Shown: piece after piece, positions 19,523 through 26,706 of the stretch | Layout of the letters: each line of letters begins with the position of its first letter | Numbering within the stretch: position 1 is the first letter of the stretch | NCBI GenBank assembly: GCA_025055035.1 | Contig: JANWZB010000011.1 | Coordinates: 1 to 44,303 of the forward strand | Source: Candidatus Kapaibacterium sp. | GTDB lineage: Bacteria > Bacteroidota > Ignavibacteria > Kapaibacteriales > UBA4661 | Length of the DNA stretch: 44,303 bases | Direction: 5' to 3' | Program-made: the position numbers and the translations under genes | The notes under the pieces: generated by a model | The model's input: only the letters and a program-made list of their open reading frames with translations | Told to the model about the DNA's origin: nothing | Databases searched by the model: none

Positions 19523-21142
19523 CTAAAACTCAATCTTTTCAAGAAGCATGAACTGAAGCTCCGATATTTGTGCTTTGTGTGGAGAGTAGTAGATGTTGTT
19601 ATTTCCTCGGTCTGTATCTTCCCAGAATGTCGGTTCAGCACTTTCAATACGTTTGCAGATAACATCCACCATACCAGCAGCTCTCATTGGGTCGAGTCCC
19701 TGTAAATCTTCTGCAATATCATCGACCACCATACCCGCAAGCTCGTAATCCTGCTGCGAGATGTAAAATAGAGCAAGTCCGGCTTGTAGTGTTCGCACGC
19801 CAGAATTAAATACTGTGTCGTAACTTGCGTTTGGGTCTTTAATGAGAGAGTCATCCATCTCTAATAATTCACACAGCAAAAGTCGTTGTAAATCCCGCTC
19901 CCACCCTAACTCTGAAACAAGAATCAATACTTCTTTCATCTCGTAGGTGAACACATCATTGATAAAGGCAAGCGTTTGCTGGGTCTGGCTATTGAGAAAA
20001 ATTTCCGAGCCATACATTTTCAGGTAGCGCATGGCTTTTTTTACTGTGTCCTTGCGATCATTGAGGGCAAGTTGCTTAACATATGTACCATAGTGAAATG
20101 CAAGATTATAAAGATTGCGAGCTTCCTGCTGCGTAATACCATGCTTAAAAGCAGAACGCATCATCGTATTGAACCGTACTAGCATATACTCCATCATGAC
20201 CTCATCGCCATACTCCATTGCTGTTTCGGCTATCAGATTGAGTTCTGCCCCACAGAGAGATGCTAAATCGAATGCATTGTCATTCAAAAATTTATTGTAG
20301 GCATCACCGATGATACGCAAACATTTCAACTCATAAAATGTTTGGTTTTGCTCAATCTCTCGAAACTGTATTTCGAGCGTTTGAAAGGAAATATCCGTTG
20401 CAACTTGATGGCTTATTTTGAAAAAATCAGGATGGAGCAGTACTTTTACTTTGCTGTATTCTCGAAGAATCGCGCCCACATTGATTACAATTTGGGCTTG
20501 CAGCTCTTTGAACGACACGAAGTATAGAATATTATCAAGCTGGTTTAAATAGCGAAAGAGTTCTTCTTGTACCCATGCCGTGTTTTGCCGCAAGCGTAGC
20601 CATCGGCGTACACTCGCTGATGCAAGGCTCTGCACAAGCCGAATATTTTCGACATAGATTTTCCGAATGATAGTCGAGGGCTTGGTCATCGCAAGGATGT
20701 AGTAAATGTATGGGAATGTCAGCACGATACTTAGCGACATGAGTATAAACGTATTGTAAAAGGCACTGGAGGGTCGAATCGCTGTAAACTTATATGCTAC
20801 AATTGCATGCGATGCCGATAGCACCAGAAACCATGCGTATAGAAGACTGCGCCAATCGTTCATGTACACATCAATCATGCGCGGCACAACCTGCGAAGCA
20901 ATAGTGATAATTACTACGAGTGTCCCAATAATCAGACTCACTATACCGAGCCACGTCTCCGGAGCAAATGACACGTCTTGCATTACCTCACTCTTAACAG
21001 GTAGTGCGATAAAGGGAAAGACAAAGTACGTACCAATATCACCCAGCACAATGCATGCACCAACAAGCAGAAATGCTATAGAGAAGCGATGTTTACGTAC
21101 GTACAGCACTATCGCATAGTATATGTTAAACAGCCTTATCAT
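19523..21142 (-). CDS. DUF2254-like integral membrane protein, unknown function
   Basis: A protein of about 539 residues with four membrane helices in its first ~160 residues: FSIAFLLVGACIVLGDIG, LGIVSLIIGTLVVIITIASQ, LLYAWFLVLSASHAIVAYKF and FILMSLSIVLTFPYIYYILA. The remaining ~380 residues are soluble, helical and rich in charged residues. The segment ASQVVPRMIDVYMNDWRSLL after helix 2 resembles the QFSPRLL region of the DUF2254 family; this is recognition by eye and not certain. The start at ATG 21142 is chosen because GAGAAGG (21150-21156) lies seven bases upstream; a TTG at 21160 is also in frame. It stands alone on the minus strand, divergent from the rimP superoperon. No enzymatic motif was seen. 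Confidence 0.82.
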   Translation of the reverse strand: MIRLFNIYYAIVLYVRKHRFSIAFLLVGACIVLGDIGTYFVFPFIALPVKSEVMQDVSFAPETWLGIVSLIIGTLVVIITIASQVVPRMIDVYMNDWRSLLYAWFLVLSASHAIVAYKFTAIRPSSAFYNTFILMSLSIVLTFPYIYYILAMTKPSTIIRKIYVENIRLVQSLASASVRRWLRLRQNTAWVQEELFRYLNQLDNILYFVSFKELQAQIVINVGAILREYSKVKVLLHPDFFKISHQVATDISFQTLEIQFREIEQNQTFYELKCLRIIGDAYNKFLNDNAFDLASLCGAELNLIAETAMEYGDEVMMEYMLVRFNTMMRSAFKHGITQQEARNLYNLAFHYGTYVKQLALNDRKDTVKKAMRYLKMYGSEIFLNSQTQQTLAFINDVFTYEMKEVLILVSELGWERDLQRLLLCELLEMDDSLIKDPNASYDTVFNSGVRTLQAGLALFYISQQDYELAGMVVDDIAEDLQGLDPMRAAGMVDVICKRIESAEPTFWEDTDRGNNNIYYSPHKAQISELQFMLLEKIEF

Positions 21143-21495
21143 ATCGCTGCCTTCTCGCAAATAGTATTGTGAGAAATACTTGGAAACAGTTCACTGCATT
21201 CCTGTCACTCTTTGCAGTACTGCTATGACAACGGCGCGGCTATGTACTAAGTTGCCACCTAATATATCCTTCGCTGGTAAACAGCTTAACTTTAGCAAAG
21301 ATAACCACACAACAACACTCGAACAAGTCATTTGTAGTATCACCGCAGTATAGATAATACAAGTACAGCATATCATCTTCCGAGAAATCTTGGAAAACAT
21401 TTTGGAAAACATATTTTTTTTCACTAGCTTAGCGAGTTGTTCAGAATTACTCACCATAGCGCTATGGGCTTTCAAACGAAAAGCCCATTTTTTGT
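21143..21495. other. 353-base divergent intergenic region (DUF2254-like gene / rimP)
   Basis: Holds the upstream region of the membrane-protein gene on the minus strand and the leader of the rimP superoperon on the plus strand. The notable elements are at its right end: a 14-base palindrome and a terminator-like hairpin overlapping it (listed separately). TTGTAG (21332-21337) and GATAAT (21353-21358) could be a promoter but are only 15 bases apart. A 94-codon minus-strand frame at 21191-21475 was judged spurious. Confidence 0.5.
21454..21493 (+). promoter_or_regulatory. candidate attenuator in the rimP-nusA-infB leader
   Basis: ATGGGCTTT (21464-21472) pairs with AAAGCCCAT (21480-21488), giving nine base pairs followed by TTTTTTG, a textbook intrinsic terminator on the plus strand. 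It ends three bases before the rimP ATG at 21496, with no plus-strand gene upstream that it could serve. The perfect palindrome CCATAGCGCTATGG (21454-21467) overlaps the left arm and could form a competing hairpin. This looks like transcription attenuation or a start-masking structure. In E. coli the homologous operon is autoregulated by NusA, which makes attenuation plausible here but not shown. Confidence 0.6.
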
Positions 21496-22065
21496 ATGAT
21501 TATGGCAAACGCAGCACATAGTCTTTCAGAAACTGATTACAAGGAACTGCACAATATCATTATGCAATGCTGTCAGCAGCATGGTGTTACTCTTATTGCT
21601 TTAGAGCTACGTGGCAGCGCAAGGCGACGTGTTGTGGAAGTGTATATTGATAAACCTGAAGGAGTTTCGCTTCGCGAGTGTGCTGACGTCTCGAATGCAA
21701 TAGGAAGTGCTATAGATAGAATACCCGCATTTTCTTCGACATATCGTCTAGATGTCTCCTCACCGGGTATTGATAGACCACTCGTACACACATGGCAATA
21801 TATCCGCAATATTGGACGCATTCTGAACATTAAGCTAGCAAATGGCACAACAATCAAAGGTCGCTTAAGCAGTGCTGATAATGCCGTGCTCACACTGAGC
21901 GAACCCTATGATTCCTCACAGTCTCACGCTCACAGTACACCTGTTTCGCGAAAAATAGCTTCCCCCCCACTGAAGCAGAAATTTGGTGGCACTACTATGC
22001 TTTCATTTCCCCTTGTTATTCCATATGACACAATCAAGCAAGCAACAGTAGAACTTGAGATGTAA
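21496..22065 (+). CDS. rimP: ribosome maturation factor RimP
   Basis: Needed for 30S subunit maturation in the cytoplasm. The 189-residue protein shows the RimP N-terminal domain: helix DYKELHNIIMQCCQQHG, then LIALELRGSARRRVVEVYIDKPEGVSLRECADVSNAIG and LDVSSPGIDRPL, the family signature, at about residues 93-104. The C-terminal SH3-like domain (about 110-189) includes GRILNIKLANGTTIKGRL and carries a longer than usual Ser/His-rich insertion (about 137-160). It is the first gene of the superoperon and lies against a terminator-like hairpin. Starts at 21496 and 21502 are both possible; neither has a Shine-Dalgarno sequence because the U-tract occupies that position. Confidence 0.93.
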   Translation: MIMANAAHSLSETDYKELHNIIMQCCQQHGVTLIALELRGSARRRVVEVYIDKPEGVSLRECADVSNAIGSAIDRIPAFSSTYRLDVSSPGIDRPLVHTWQYIRNIGRILNIKLANGTTIKGRLSSADNAVLTLSEPYDSSQSHAHSTPVSRKIASPPLKQKFGGTTMLSFPLVIPYDTIKQATVELEM

Positions 22066-22138: not shown

Positions 22139-23569
22139 ATGCCACGAAAAGCAAAACCTAAACTCGACAAAAGCGTTATTGTCGAAGCGTTCACTGAAAT
22201 GGCACGCGAGCGCGGTATTGACCGCGAAACGCTTCAGGGTATTGTCAAAGATACGCTTTCCATGCTTGTTCGCAAGAAGTATGGCGACCGAGCTGTCTTT
22301 GATATTGTTGTGAACATGGACAAAGGCGACATTGAAATCTACCGCATTCTCACAGTTGTGGACAGCGTCAAGGACCCGGTGCTTGAAATTTCTCAGCATG
22401 AAGCAAATCAAGGCACAGATTACTACGAAGTTGGCGACGAGTTTCTCGAAGAGATTACTCTAGACAACATTGCTGAGAACTTTGGTCGCCGCCTTGTCAA
22501 CACTGCCGGGCAAACGCTCAACCAGCGCATTCGCGACGTGGAGCGCGAAAACATCAGCACATATTTTTCTGAGCGCATAGGAGAAATTATTGTCGGTGAG
22601 GTCCACCATATCCGCCGCTCCGATGTATTCATCATGCATAATAATGTAGAAATGCGCTTGCCACGTGAGGAGCAAATTCCTCGCGAACGCTATAGAAAAG
22701 GCGAACCGATACGTGCTATCATCAAAGAGGTACGCAAGCAGGGCGTTGCAGGAGGAGGGCCAGACATTATCGTTTCCCGTGCTGATAATGCCTTTCTGGC
22801 AAAGCTCTTTGAAATTGAAATTCCAGAAATTTATGACCGCCTCATCGAAATTAAGGCAATTGCTCGCGAACCTGGTGAGCGTGCAAAGATTGCTGTGCAG
22901 TCATACGACGACCGCATCGACCCCGTCGGTGCATGCGTCGGCATGAAAGGCATTCGCATTCATGCAATCGTTCGCGAGCTTTCCAATGAAAACATTGATG
23001 TTATCAACTATTCTGACGACCCAGCAACGTTCATTGCTCGCGCACTCTCGCCTGCGAAAGTCAAAAGCATACAAGTTTCACCAGAAACCCGTTCATGTAC
23101 TGTACTGGTAAGCGATGATCAGGTATCTCTTGCAATCGGCAAAAATGGACAAAACGTTCGGTTAGCTTCGCGCCTGACAGGATACTCCATCTCGCTCGTG
23201 AAAGAAGGAATCGAAGACATTGAGCTTATCGAATTCCGAGATGAGCTCGGCAAAGACTTATATATGCAGATTATCGAAGCAGAAATTGATACAGCACGAG
23301 AGTTCCTGAATGCTGATCCCAAACGCCTATTGGCTATTCCCGGTATGACACCTGAATTTCTTCTCGAAATGCGCCGCATCATGCTTGATGAATTCGATGA
23401 GCCTGAAAATCCAGAAATACGTGATTATATCTTATCGCTCGGCTCTAGTATGCAACCTGATAAACAGCCGAAGACCTTGGATGGTAGCGAACTGCTGCAT
23501 ACGCATTCTCCAGTAGACATAGCAGCTGCAACAATAGAATCGCCTGCGCACTCTTCTTTGAGCAGATAG
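22139..23569 (+). CDS. nusA: transcription termination/antitermination factor NusA
   Basis: Binds RNA polymerase and controls pausing, termination and antitermination. Domains in order: N-terminal polymerase-binding domain (about 8-135), S1 (about 147-203), KH1 with GACVGMKGIR (264-273), KH2 with AIGKNGQNVR (332-341), and a C-terminal tail. The 476-residue length matches NusA without the acidic repeat pair of E. coli; the last 50 residues are Ser/Pro-rich and probably disordered. There is no Shine-Dalgarno sequence before ATG 22139. It sits between rimP and infB as in most bacteria and may regulate its own operon. Confidence 0.97.
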   Translation: MPRKAKPKLDKSVIVEAFTEMARERGIDRETLQGIVKDTLSMLVRKKYGDRAVFDIVVNMDKGDIEIYRILTVVDSVKDPVLEISQHEANQGTDYYEVGDEFLEEITLDNIAENFGRRLVNTAGQTLNQRIRDVERENISTYFSERIGEIIVGEVHHIRRSDVFIMHNNVEMRLPREEQIPRERYRKGEPIRAIIKEVRKQGVAGGGPDIIVSRADNAFLAKLFEIEIPEIYDRLIEIKAIAREPGERAKIAVQSYDDRIDPVGACVGMKGIRIHAIVRELSNENIDVINYSDDPATFIARALSPAKVKSIQVSPETRSCTVLVSDDQVSLAIGKNGQNVRLASRLTGYSISLVKEGIEDIELIEFRDELGKDLYMQIIEAEIDTAREFLNADPKRLLAIPGMTPEFLLEMRRIMLDEFDEPENPEIRDYILSLGSSMQPDKQPKTLDGSELLHTHSPVDIAAATIESPAHSSLSR

Positions 23570-23637: not shown

Positions 23638-26600
23638 ATGGCAAGCATCGGAACAAAACTGTTCAAAATCGCCTCGCAGATTAATGTCGGCAAAGAAACT
23701 ATCGTCGAGTTTCTTCAGGCAAAGGGCTTCTCTATTGAGAACAAAGCAACCTCGACACTCACTGATGACATGGTTGAGCTTGTTCTCAAAAACTTCCAGA
23801 AGGAGGCTGCTGCTGCATCGAAATACCGTGCAAGAACATCTGGAGAAAAAGACCATGCTTCGCATTCCCACGAAGAACATGCGCAGCGCTCTGGCACACA
23901 ACAGACAACTTTCCATCATGACCAAGTAGAGCATACTCATAGCCCAGATAATAGCAATGAGCTACGCTTAGCCACAGAAGCGCATACAGCTTCTTCCGAC
24001 AGTGCCTCTACTCTTCATACACCCTTAGCACAACCTCAGGGTGCTACAGAATCTGACATTCCTGTTGGCACGGTTATTCAGCTTGATGAGCCAGTTTCGC
24101 GGAAGAAACCTAAAAGGAGTAAAACTGTACCTTCGGAAAAAAGCAGCCAAGTGCAGACTACGCAGCGGCCTCATGATACACTTTCTAGCGAACCTGAGCA
24201 TAGCACATTTATTTATCAGACAGAAGCGGCATCTAAAGAAATTACGGCATCGCTACACAAGCAGCGAAGTGCAGAAGAACCTCATGAAGAGCACGTATTA
24301 TCACCCGAACACTTAGATACTAGCATCGAGCTTGTCTCCCCCTCATCAGAGGAATTCATACCACAGCCCATACGTGAAGCAGCAGAGCATGTTCTGATGG
24401 AAGAACATGAGGTTATGCGCGAATCTGATGAATTGACAGCCGACGACGATGAAAGCATAGATGCTCTTGCACACGATGACAAGGCAAATAAGCGTAAACG
24501 CAAGAAGCGCATCGGCGAAGTCGAGTATTTTGTGGACAATACGCCCTATACGATACCATCGGGGCTAACAATTTTAGGGAAAATCGATCTTGGCAGTACC
24601 CGTCGTGAGGCAAGCTCTCGCCGAAGTGAAAGACGCTCTAAAGAATCCCATCGCGATGATAGCAAAGAGGAGCAACTCGTGCGTATTAAGGGCGCTTCTT
24701 CCAAGATGAAAGACTGGATCAAAGAAGATGCACCGATTCCTGCGAAGAAATCTCTAGGCGGTAGCTCGAAGAAGAAGCGTAAGAAAAGCAAAAGGGAACA
24801 AGTTAGTGCCGAAGAAGTAGAAAAGGCAATTCGTCGTACTCTCGCTGGTCAGGAAGAATCTCAGCTTGCAATGCGTAGCCGTCTGCGCCAGCGTCGGAAA
24901 CAAGAGCGTGCCGACGAACTAGAACGGCAAGCAGAACTACGAGAACTCGAAAGCACAATACTGCGTGTTACAGAATTTATCACAGTTGCTGAACTTGCTG
25001 ACCTTATTGGTGTTCCAACCAACGAGATTATCCTCAAGTGTATGGGGCTAGGTCTTATGGTTTCGATTAACCAACGCCTTGAAAAAGATACTATTACCCT
25101 GATTGCCTCAGATTATGGCTTGGAAGTGGAGTTTGAAGATGCCTTTGCTGAAGAAGCACTCGAAGAGGATGACGACGAAGATGAATCTTTACTCGAACCA
25201 CGCGCTCCGATTGTTACAGTTATGGGTCATGTTGACCACGGCAAAACATCTCTACTCGATTATATCCGAAAAACAAGCGTTGCTAGTGTAGAGTCTGGTG
25301 GTATCACACAGCATATCGGGGCGTATAGTGTCAAAACTGGTCTCGATGGGAAATGTATTACATTCCTTGATACCCCCGGACACCAAGCATTTACAGCAAT
25401 GCGTGCTCGTGGTGCACAACTTACCGACATTGTTGTGCTTGTAGTGGCAGCAGATGACAACGTTATGCCTCAAACAGTTGAGGCAATTAGTCACGCACGT
25501 GCCGCTAACGTGCCTATTATTGTCGCTATCAATAAAATCGACAAACCCGAAGCAAACCCTGACAGAATACGTCAGCAACTTGCAGAACATAATGTCCTTG
25601 TAGAAGAGTGGGGTGGCAAAGTACAGTCAGCACTCATCTCAGCCAAAAAAGGCACAAACGTTGACCAGCTGCTCGAAAAAATCCTTTTGGAGGCAGAAAT
25701 TCTCAACCTTCGTGCTAATCCTCATCGCAAAGCACGTGGAACAGTAGTCGAATCCAAAATAGACAAGGGCAAAGGCGCTGTAGCAACAGTCATTGTACAG
25801 AAGGGTACGCTTCACGTGGGAGACCCATTTTTGTGTGGTATCCACGCAGGGCGTGTTCGCGCTATGTTTAACGAAAACGGTGAGCGCATGGAAAAAGCTA
25901 TACCGTCTACACCAGTTCAAATTCTCGGATTCGACGGTGTCCCGCAAGCAGGTGATTCATTTATTGTAATGGACAGCGAAGTACAAGCACGTGAAATTGC
26001 AAGCGCACGTCAGCAGATTAAGCGTGAGCAAGACTTCAAGCGTATACGCCATGTTACACTTGATGATATTGCAAGCCGCATTAAGGCTGGAGCGCAAGAA
26101 TTAAAAATCATCCTCAAGGGTGACACCGATGGTTCTGTCGAAGCACTCTCAGATGCTCTGCAAAAGCTCTCCACTGAAGAAGTCAAGGTATCAATTATTC
26201 TGCGTGCTGTCGGACCTATCTCAGAATCCGACGTTATGCTTGCCGCTGCCTCAGACGCCGTTATTATAGGTTTTCATGTTCGACCCACTGCGCAAGTTCT
26301 AAAGCTTGCCGAAAGTGAGGGTGTCGATATTCGCCTGTATCGCATCATTTACGACTGCATCAGCGAAGTCAAGCTGGCACTGGAAGGTATGCTCACCCCA
26401 GAGATTAAGGAAGAAGTCGTTGGTGTTGCTGAAATTCGCGAGATATTCAAAATAAGCAAGGTTGGAAACATTGCAGGCTGCTACGTATTAGAGGGCAAAA
26501 TTAACCGTAATGATTCTGTACGCCTGCTGCGCGATGGATTTGAGATTTTCACAGGCAAGCTTGCCTCGCTGAGACGCTTGAAAGATGACGTTAGAGAAGT

Positions 26601-26706
26601 AGATGCGGGATTTGAATGCGGTATGGCAATCGAAGGCTATAACGATATCAGAGTCGGCGACCTCATAGAAGCAGTGCGCAAAACAGAAGTCAAGCGCAAG
26701 CTCTAG
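23638..26706 (+). CDS. infB: translation initiation factor IF-2
   Basis: A GTPase that brings initiator fMet-tRNA to the 30S subunit. The 1022-residue protein begins with an IF2 N-terminal domain (about 5-55, [20 protein letters not shown]). A long, charged, probably disordered linker with many Glu, Lys and Ser follows (about 60-430). A second IF2_N domain lies at about 445-505. The G domain starts near 522, with GHVDHGKT (530-537), DTPGHQAF and NKID. Domains II, III and IV (fMet-tRNA binding, to residue 1022) follow. Length and long linker are normal for this phylum. The start ATG 23638 lacks a Shine-Dalgarno sequence. Confidence 0.97.

Follow-up and report, generated by a model that had tools for sequence, protein, structure and literature searches.

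The leader of the rimP-nusA-infB operon in the window, by which we mean the whole analysed stretch of 44,303 nucleotides from Candidatus Kapaibacterium sp., contains a hairpin followed by a T tract. The hairpin is conserved, occupies a fixed place after the promoter and is associated with nusA. Our main reading, which we consider about 75% probable, is that it represents a promoter-proximal intrinsic terminator that is stimulated by NusA and thereby provides feedback on its own operon. RNA polymerase would initiate near 21437 at a Bacteroidota-type promoter and produce a short leader RNA; at the hairpin and T6 tract it would either release an RNA of roughly 57 nt or continue into rimP, nusA and infB. 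Release would be stimulated by polymerase-bound NusA, such that high levels of NusA would lower the transcription of its own operon and low levels would raise it. Judged by its location, core motif and U stretch, the element is a Bacteroidota-lineage member of the known rimP-leader that falls outside the reach of the Rfam model RF01770. Leader attenuation as such, the core idea of the original prediction, has already been described (PMC2965389, PMC12288461). What is new is the spread of the element across the Bacteroidota, its compact promoter-terminator geometry and its retention at nusA after the loss of rimP, none of which we found reported in the literature searched, which included few subscription papers.

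The leader hairpin in the window

The coordinates originally given for the hairpin, the T6 tract and the rimP start codon proved correct when the sequence was re-read and folded (Table 1). The 9 bp stem (ATGGGCTTT/AAAGCCCAT) has a GGGC/GCCC core, and 2 nt separate the T6 tract from the ATG at 21496. The RNA fold of positions 21464-21495 has an energy of -11.2 kcal/mol (z = -3.6), and none of 200 shuffles was equally stable. The pattern GGGCN{2,20}GCCCWTTTTT has a single forward match in the window's own genome, which is the rimP-leader hairpin, and no reverse match; searched over the genomes of the order, the GGGC...GCCC-T pattern also matches the terminators of other genes and is thus by itself unspecific in the relatives. 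The claim that no plus-strand gene precedes the hairpin holds, as the neighbour at 19523-21160 is divergent and located on the minus strand. This neighbour encodes a protein of 545 amino acids that has no Pfam matches.

Table 1. Positions of the promoter, leader and operon features in the window.
Feature	Position	Strand	Basis or remark
Candidate -33 TTG element	21402..21404	+	20 nt before the -7 element; spacing recurs in genus relatives G001, G002, G003 and G006
Candidate -7 element TAGCTTAG	21425..21432	+	Aligns with TAATTTAG / TATATTTG of relatives; consensus TAnnTTTG
Predicted short leader RNA, about 57 nt	21437..21493	+	Assumes a start 5 nt downstream of the -7 element and a stop at the T tract
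Palindrome CCATAGCGCTATGG	21454..21467	+	Judged to be outside the mechanism
Terminator hairpin ATGGGCTTTCAAACGAAAAGCCCAT	21464..21488	+	Stem read and folded; conserved in the order
T6 tract of the terminator	21488..21493	+	Sequence; T tract conserved in relatives
rimP	21496..22065	+	PF02576 RimP_N, E = 3e-17; ATG 21496 or in-frame ATG 21502
nusA, proposed feedback regulator	22139..23569	+	PF08529 NusA_N, PF13184 KH_5
infB (IF-2), downstream operon gene	23638..26706	+	PF11987 IF-2

The 14-base palindrome CCATAGCGCTATGG had been suggested to act as an alternative fold. It is present at its proposed site, but this role was not borne out: none of eight relatives from the same genus or family has a palindrome at the equivalent place, and the window contains five perfect 14-base palindromes compared to 2.7 expected under uniform composition. 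Being unconserved and near the chance number, it was rejected as an antiterminator. The statement that the hairpin replaces the ribosome binding site was misleading, since no Shine-Dalgarno signal is apparent among the genes in the window (3 of 30 upstream regions, compared to 2 of 30 controls), and masking of such a site is therefore not expected.

The -7 consensus in the Bacteroidota is TAnnTTTG (PMC7366714, PMC9723704), and in Flavobacterium psychrophilum this box spans -12 to -5 (PMC9723704). By applying the same placement to the window, we infer a start site near 21437 and a leader RNA of 57 nt. The -7 element of the window is an imperfect match to the consensus, and its leader is longer than most. 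A scan for sigma-70-type promoters identified seven, compared to 4.3 expected, and was uninformative. A short tandem duplication, TTGGAAAACAT/TTTGGAAAACAT, covers the candidate -33 region at 21387-21412.

Conservation and geometry of the element

RimP was detected in 49 of 61 relatives, and a unit consisting of promoter, hairpin and T tract lies ahead of rimP in 43 of these 49 genomes of the order by a simple GGG...CCC-T4 rule. By a stricter, sequence-neutral rule, which overlooks 4-bp stems and interrupted T tracts, the hairpin was recovered in 38 of the 49 order leaders and in 70 of 83 leaders from other families of the class; some order leaders have stems of only 4-5 bp. The same rule gave shuffle means of 0.2 (order) and 0.4 (class), and one hit among 86 leaders of other divergent genes, drawn from 40 stretches of 20 kb (800 kb) of the order genomes. 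Since the hairpins were found by complementarity, their pairing cannot count as independent evidence, whereas the enrichment relative to shuffles and to divergent-gene leaders can, and it indicates that the hairpin is not due to chance. Among 76 named loci, mostly from other classes of Bacteroidota, a looser rule identified the hairpin in 63, with other stem sequences, and several of the remaining loci, read by eye, contain GAGGGGAC...GTCCCCTC followed by TTTCATT.

The stem is variable in sequence. Within the order, the inner pair beside the GGGC core can form in 40 of 47 distinct leaders, compared to a shuffle mean of 25, and thus covaries. GGG/CCC is found in all 55 distinct hairpins compared, a set that was itself selected on the GGG/CCC core. 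Between the families of the class the stems change from GGGC/GCCC to GCCC/GGGC (TAGCCC...GGGCTA), CGCCC...GGGCG, GTCCC...GGGAC, GGGT...ACCC and GACGCT...AGCGTC. The stem is thus inverted or replaced from one family to another, and yet a hairpin before a T tract persists. No leader hairpin was found in family f6/g8 (G014, G023, G030, G036, G041, G046; L030, L173, L175, L177-L179), in which rimP, nusA and a promoter resembling TATTTTTG are present; the retention of both genes without the hairpin indicates that the element is dispensable. In family f13 (L090, L092, L095), a long stretch of about 180-200 nt separates the hairpin from the RimP match downstream, unlike in other families. Several Bacteroidales loci (L119, L131, L136, L138, L155, L159, L163, L169) have a tRNA-Gln(TTG) just upstream of the rimP leader, an arrangement reminiscent of E. 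coli, where the tRNA gene metY is located ahead of rimP.

In 30 of 42 order leaders, the last T follows the -7 element at a distance of 37-46 nt; the rest range up to 61 nt, the value in the window, apart from three at 83, 84 and 108 nt. The spacing between the T tract and the first start codon is 0-89 nt across the order leaders, and the hairpin lies 26-176 nt from the start codon in most leaders of two families, f3 and f22, a wider spread than that of the promoter distance. By these spacings the element is tied more to the promoter than to the start codon. A narrow promoter distance combined with a variable start-codon distance is more readily explained by premature transcription termination than by translation control.

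The hairpin at nusA in families without detectable RimP

Neither f3, which belongs to the same order as the window, nor f22, which belongs to the same class, has a RimP that could be identified by protein, profile or PF02576 searches. No RimP_N match was obtained in 35 near-complete genomes, of which 30 are from f3 (a subset of G011-G098) and five from f22 (G113, G122, G140, G155, G205); as a control, PF02576 matches the window's own genome and 10 of 14 control genomes. The profile of the RimP C-terminal domain (PF17384), with which a search was also made, misses even the RimP of the window's own genome and was therefore uninformative. RimP, a ribosome maturation factor, seems to have been lost from entire families.

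In both families, the promoter-hairpin-T unit is placed directly before nusA. In f22 the hairpin was found in all nine leaders. In f3 it was found in 23 of 28 by rule, and additionally in G011 and G039 by eye, where the stems are 4 bp. One of the 23, G044, owes its score to another hairpin upstream, and its leader also has the GGGC form AATGGGCATTTGCCCATTTTTT. Among the exceptions, G088 and G092 are unreadable (contig edge, truncated locus) and the T tract of G082 is interrupted. Named matches to f3 are RIFOXYC2_FULL_35_21 and RX1_metabat.bin.17, which are 100% identical to f3 members over 4.3 kb, and Ignavibacteria BIN7 shows about 80% similarity to f22.

In the NusA tree, f3 is placed within the order of the window and f22 is the sister of the RimP-bearing family f15 with 100/100 support, far apart from f3. 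Two separate losses of rimP are the simplest reading of these placements. The hairpin is kept before nusA where rimP is missing, which suggests that the element follows nusA and makes NusA a more likely feedback factor than RimP. The description from 2010 left undecided whether RimP or NusA is the factor sensed (PMC2965389), and the persistence of the hairpin at nusA in two lineages that appear to have lost rimP independently provides comparative evidence on this question as well as ready test cases.

Known leaders and alternative explanations

The rimP-leader attenuator was described by Naville & Gautheret 2010 as a GGGc...gCCC stem followed by a U stretch, with the terminator 4-130 nt from the gene start (PMC2965389). 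The window hairpin resembles it in its location 5' of rimP-nusA-infB, in the GGGc(...)gCCC stem core (here ATGGGC...GCCCAT), in the U stretch directly after the stem, in having no visible conserved antiterminator and in NusA being the proposed effector. The window terminator is 2 nt from the ATG at 21496 and 8 nt from the ATG at 21502, and the relatives fall within 4-130 nt. The element differs from the rimP-leader in its Bacteroidota-type promoter, in the core, which other families of the class have inverted or exchanged, and in its placement before nusA where rimP is absent. In B. subtilis, NusA is known to autoregulate via attenuation in the nusA operon leader (summarised in PMC12288461); an intrinsic terminator in this leader is shared, with stimulation by NusA being shown experimentally there and predicted here. 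The B. subtilis nusA leader is about 180 nt (PMC2965389), compared to the predicted 57 nt in the window. In the rimP leader of S. agalactiae, RNA-seq evidence places termination 31 nt downstream of the start site, and the short RNA and long mRNA have a common start (PMC4448216). This distance is similar to the 33-42 nt that we predict for most order leaders, although the promoter is of the Firmicutes type, unlike here.

A structured 5' element without any Rfam hit has been reported upstream of rimP in F. psychrophilum, thus in the same phylum and at the same gene, in a paper whose main text gives neither sequence nor mechanism (PMC9723704). It may correspond to the Bacteroidia hairpin GAGGGGAC...GTCCCCTC observed here. 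RF01770 (rimP), a model of 102 positions named for the rimP leader, has no match in the window's own genome and none in 21100-21700 up to E = 10; among 14 control genomes it matches only E. coli. A phylum-wide element in the Bacteroidota is thus invisible to the current Rfam model and overlooked in annotation.

The proposed feedback by NusA through a leader terminator is favoured by the conservation in the phylum, the position fixed to the promoter and the fact that the hairpin stays with nusA where rimP has been lost; these observations also bear on the alternatives. The terminator might be a constitutive brake that holds read-through at a fixed low level irrespective of any signal. A hairpin with a T tract can terminate alone, and we found neither a conserved partner nor an alternative fold. 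However, a weaker promoter would achieve the same, and conservation across the phylum specifically ahead of nusA, together with the B. subtilis precedent (PMC12288461), argues for a response to NusA, which leaves the brake rather improbable. That attenuation is real with RimP as the feedback factor, acting by binding to the leader, was raised as a possibility by Naville & Gautheret (PMC2965389) and agrees with rimP being the first gene in most genomes. We regard it as unlikely, given that two separate lineages without detectable RimP retain the hairpin before nusA and that the stem changes wholesale between families, as would not be expected of a conserved site to which a single protein binds.

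Translation control, the second possibility in the original prediction, would have the hairpin at the start codon govern ribosome access or mRNA stability, as the 2 nt between the T tract and the ATG in the window might suggest. It is very unlikely in view of the variable distance from the hairpin to the start codon and the narrower promoter distance, the lack of a Shine-Dalgarno signal to mask and the conservation of the T tract. A promoter with a terminator some 40-60 nt further on would also yield a discrete short RNA, and the unit could in principle be a separate trans-acting small RNA, its place ahead of rimP or nusA being incidental. This is extremely improbable, as the sequence from promoter to stem and the loop are unconserved between families and the unit remains with nusA even after rimP loss.

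Returning to termination stimulated by NusA, we tentatively propose, as a reading that is more doubtful than plausible, that the element is a gauge of NusA on the early-elongation polymerase and not a sequence motif. The stem would then be free to drift or invert, with the terminator kept at roughly 33-42 nt downstream of the start site, a point at which the polymerase would only just be swapping sigma for NusA. If so, the efficiency of termination would report, throughout the Bacteroidota and regardless of the gene that follows, how far newly escaped polymerase is occupied by NusA.
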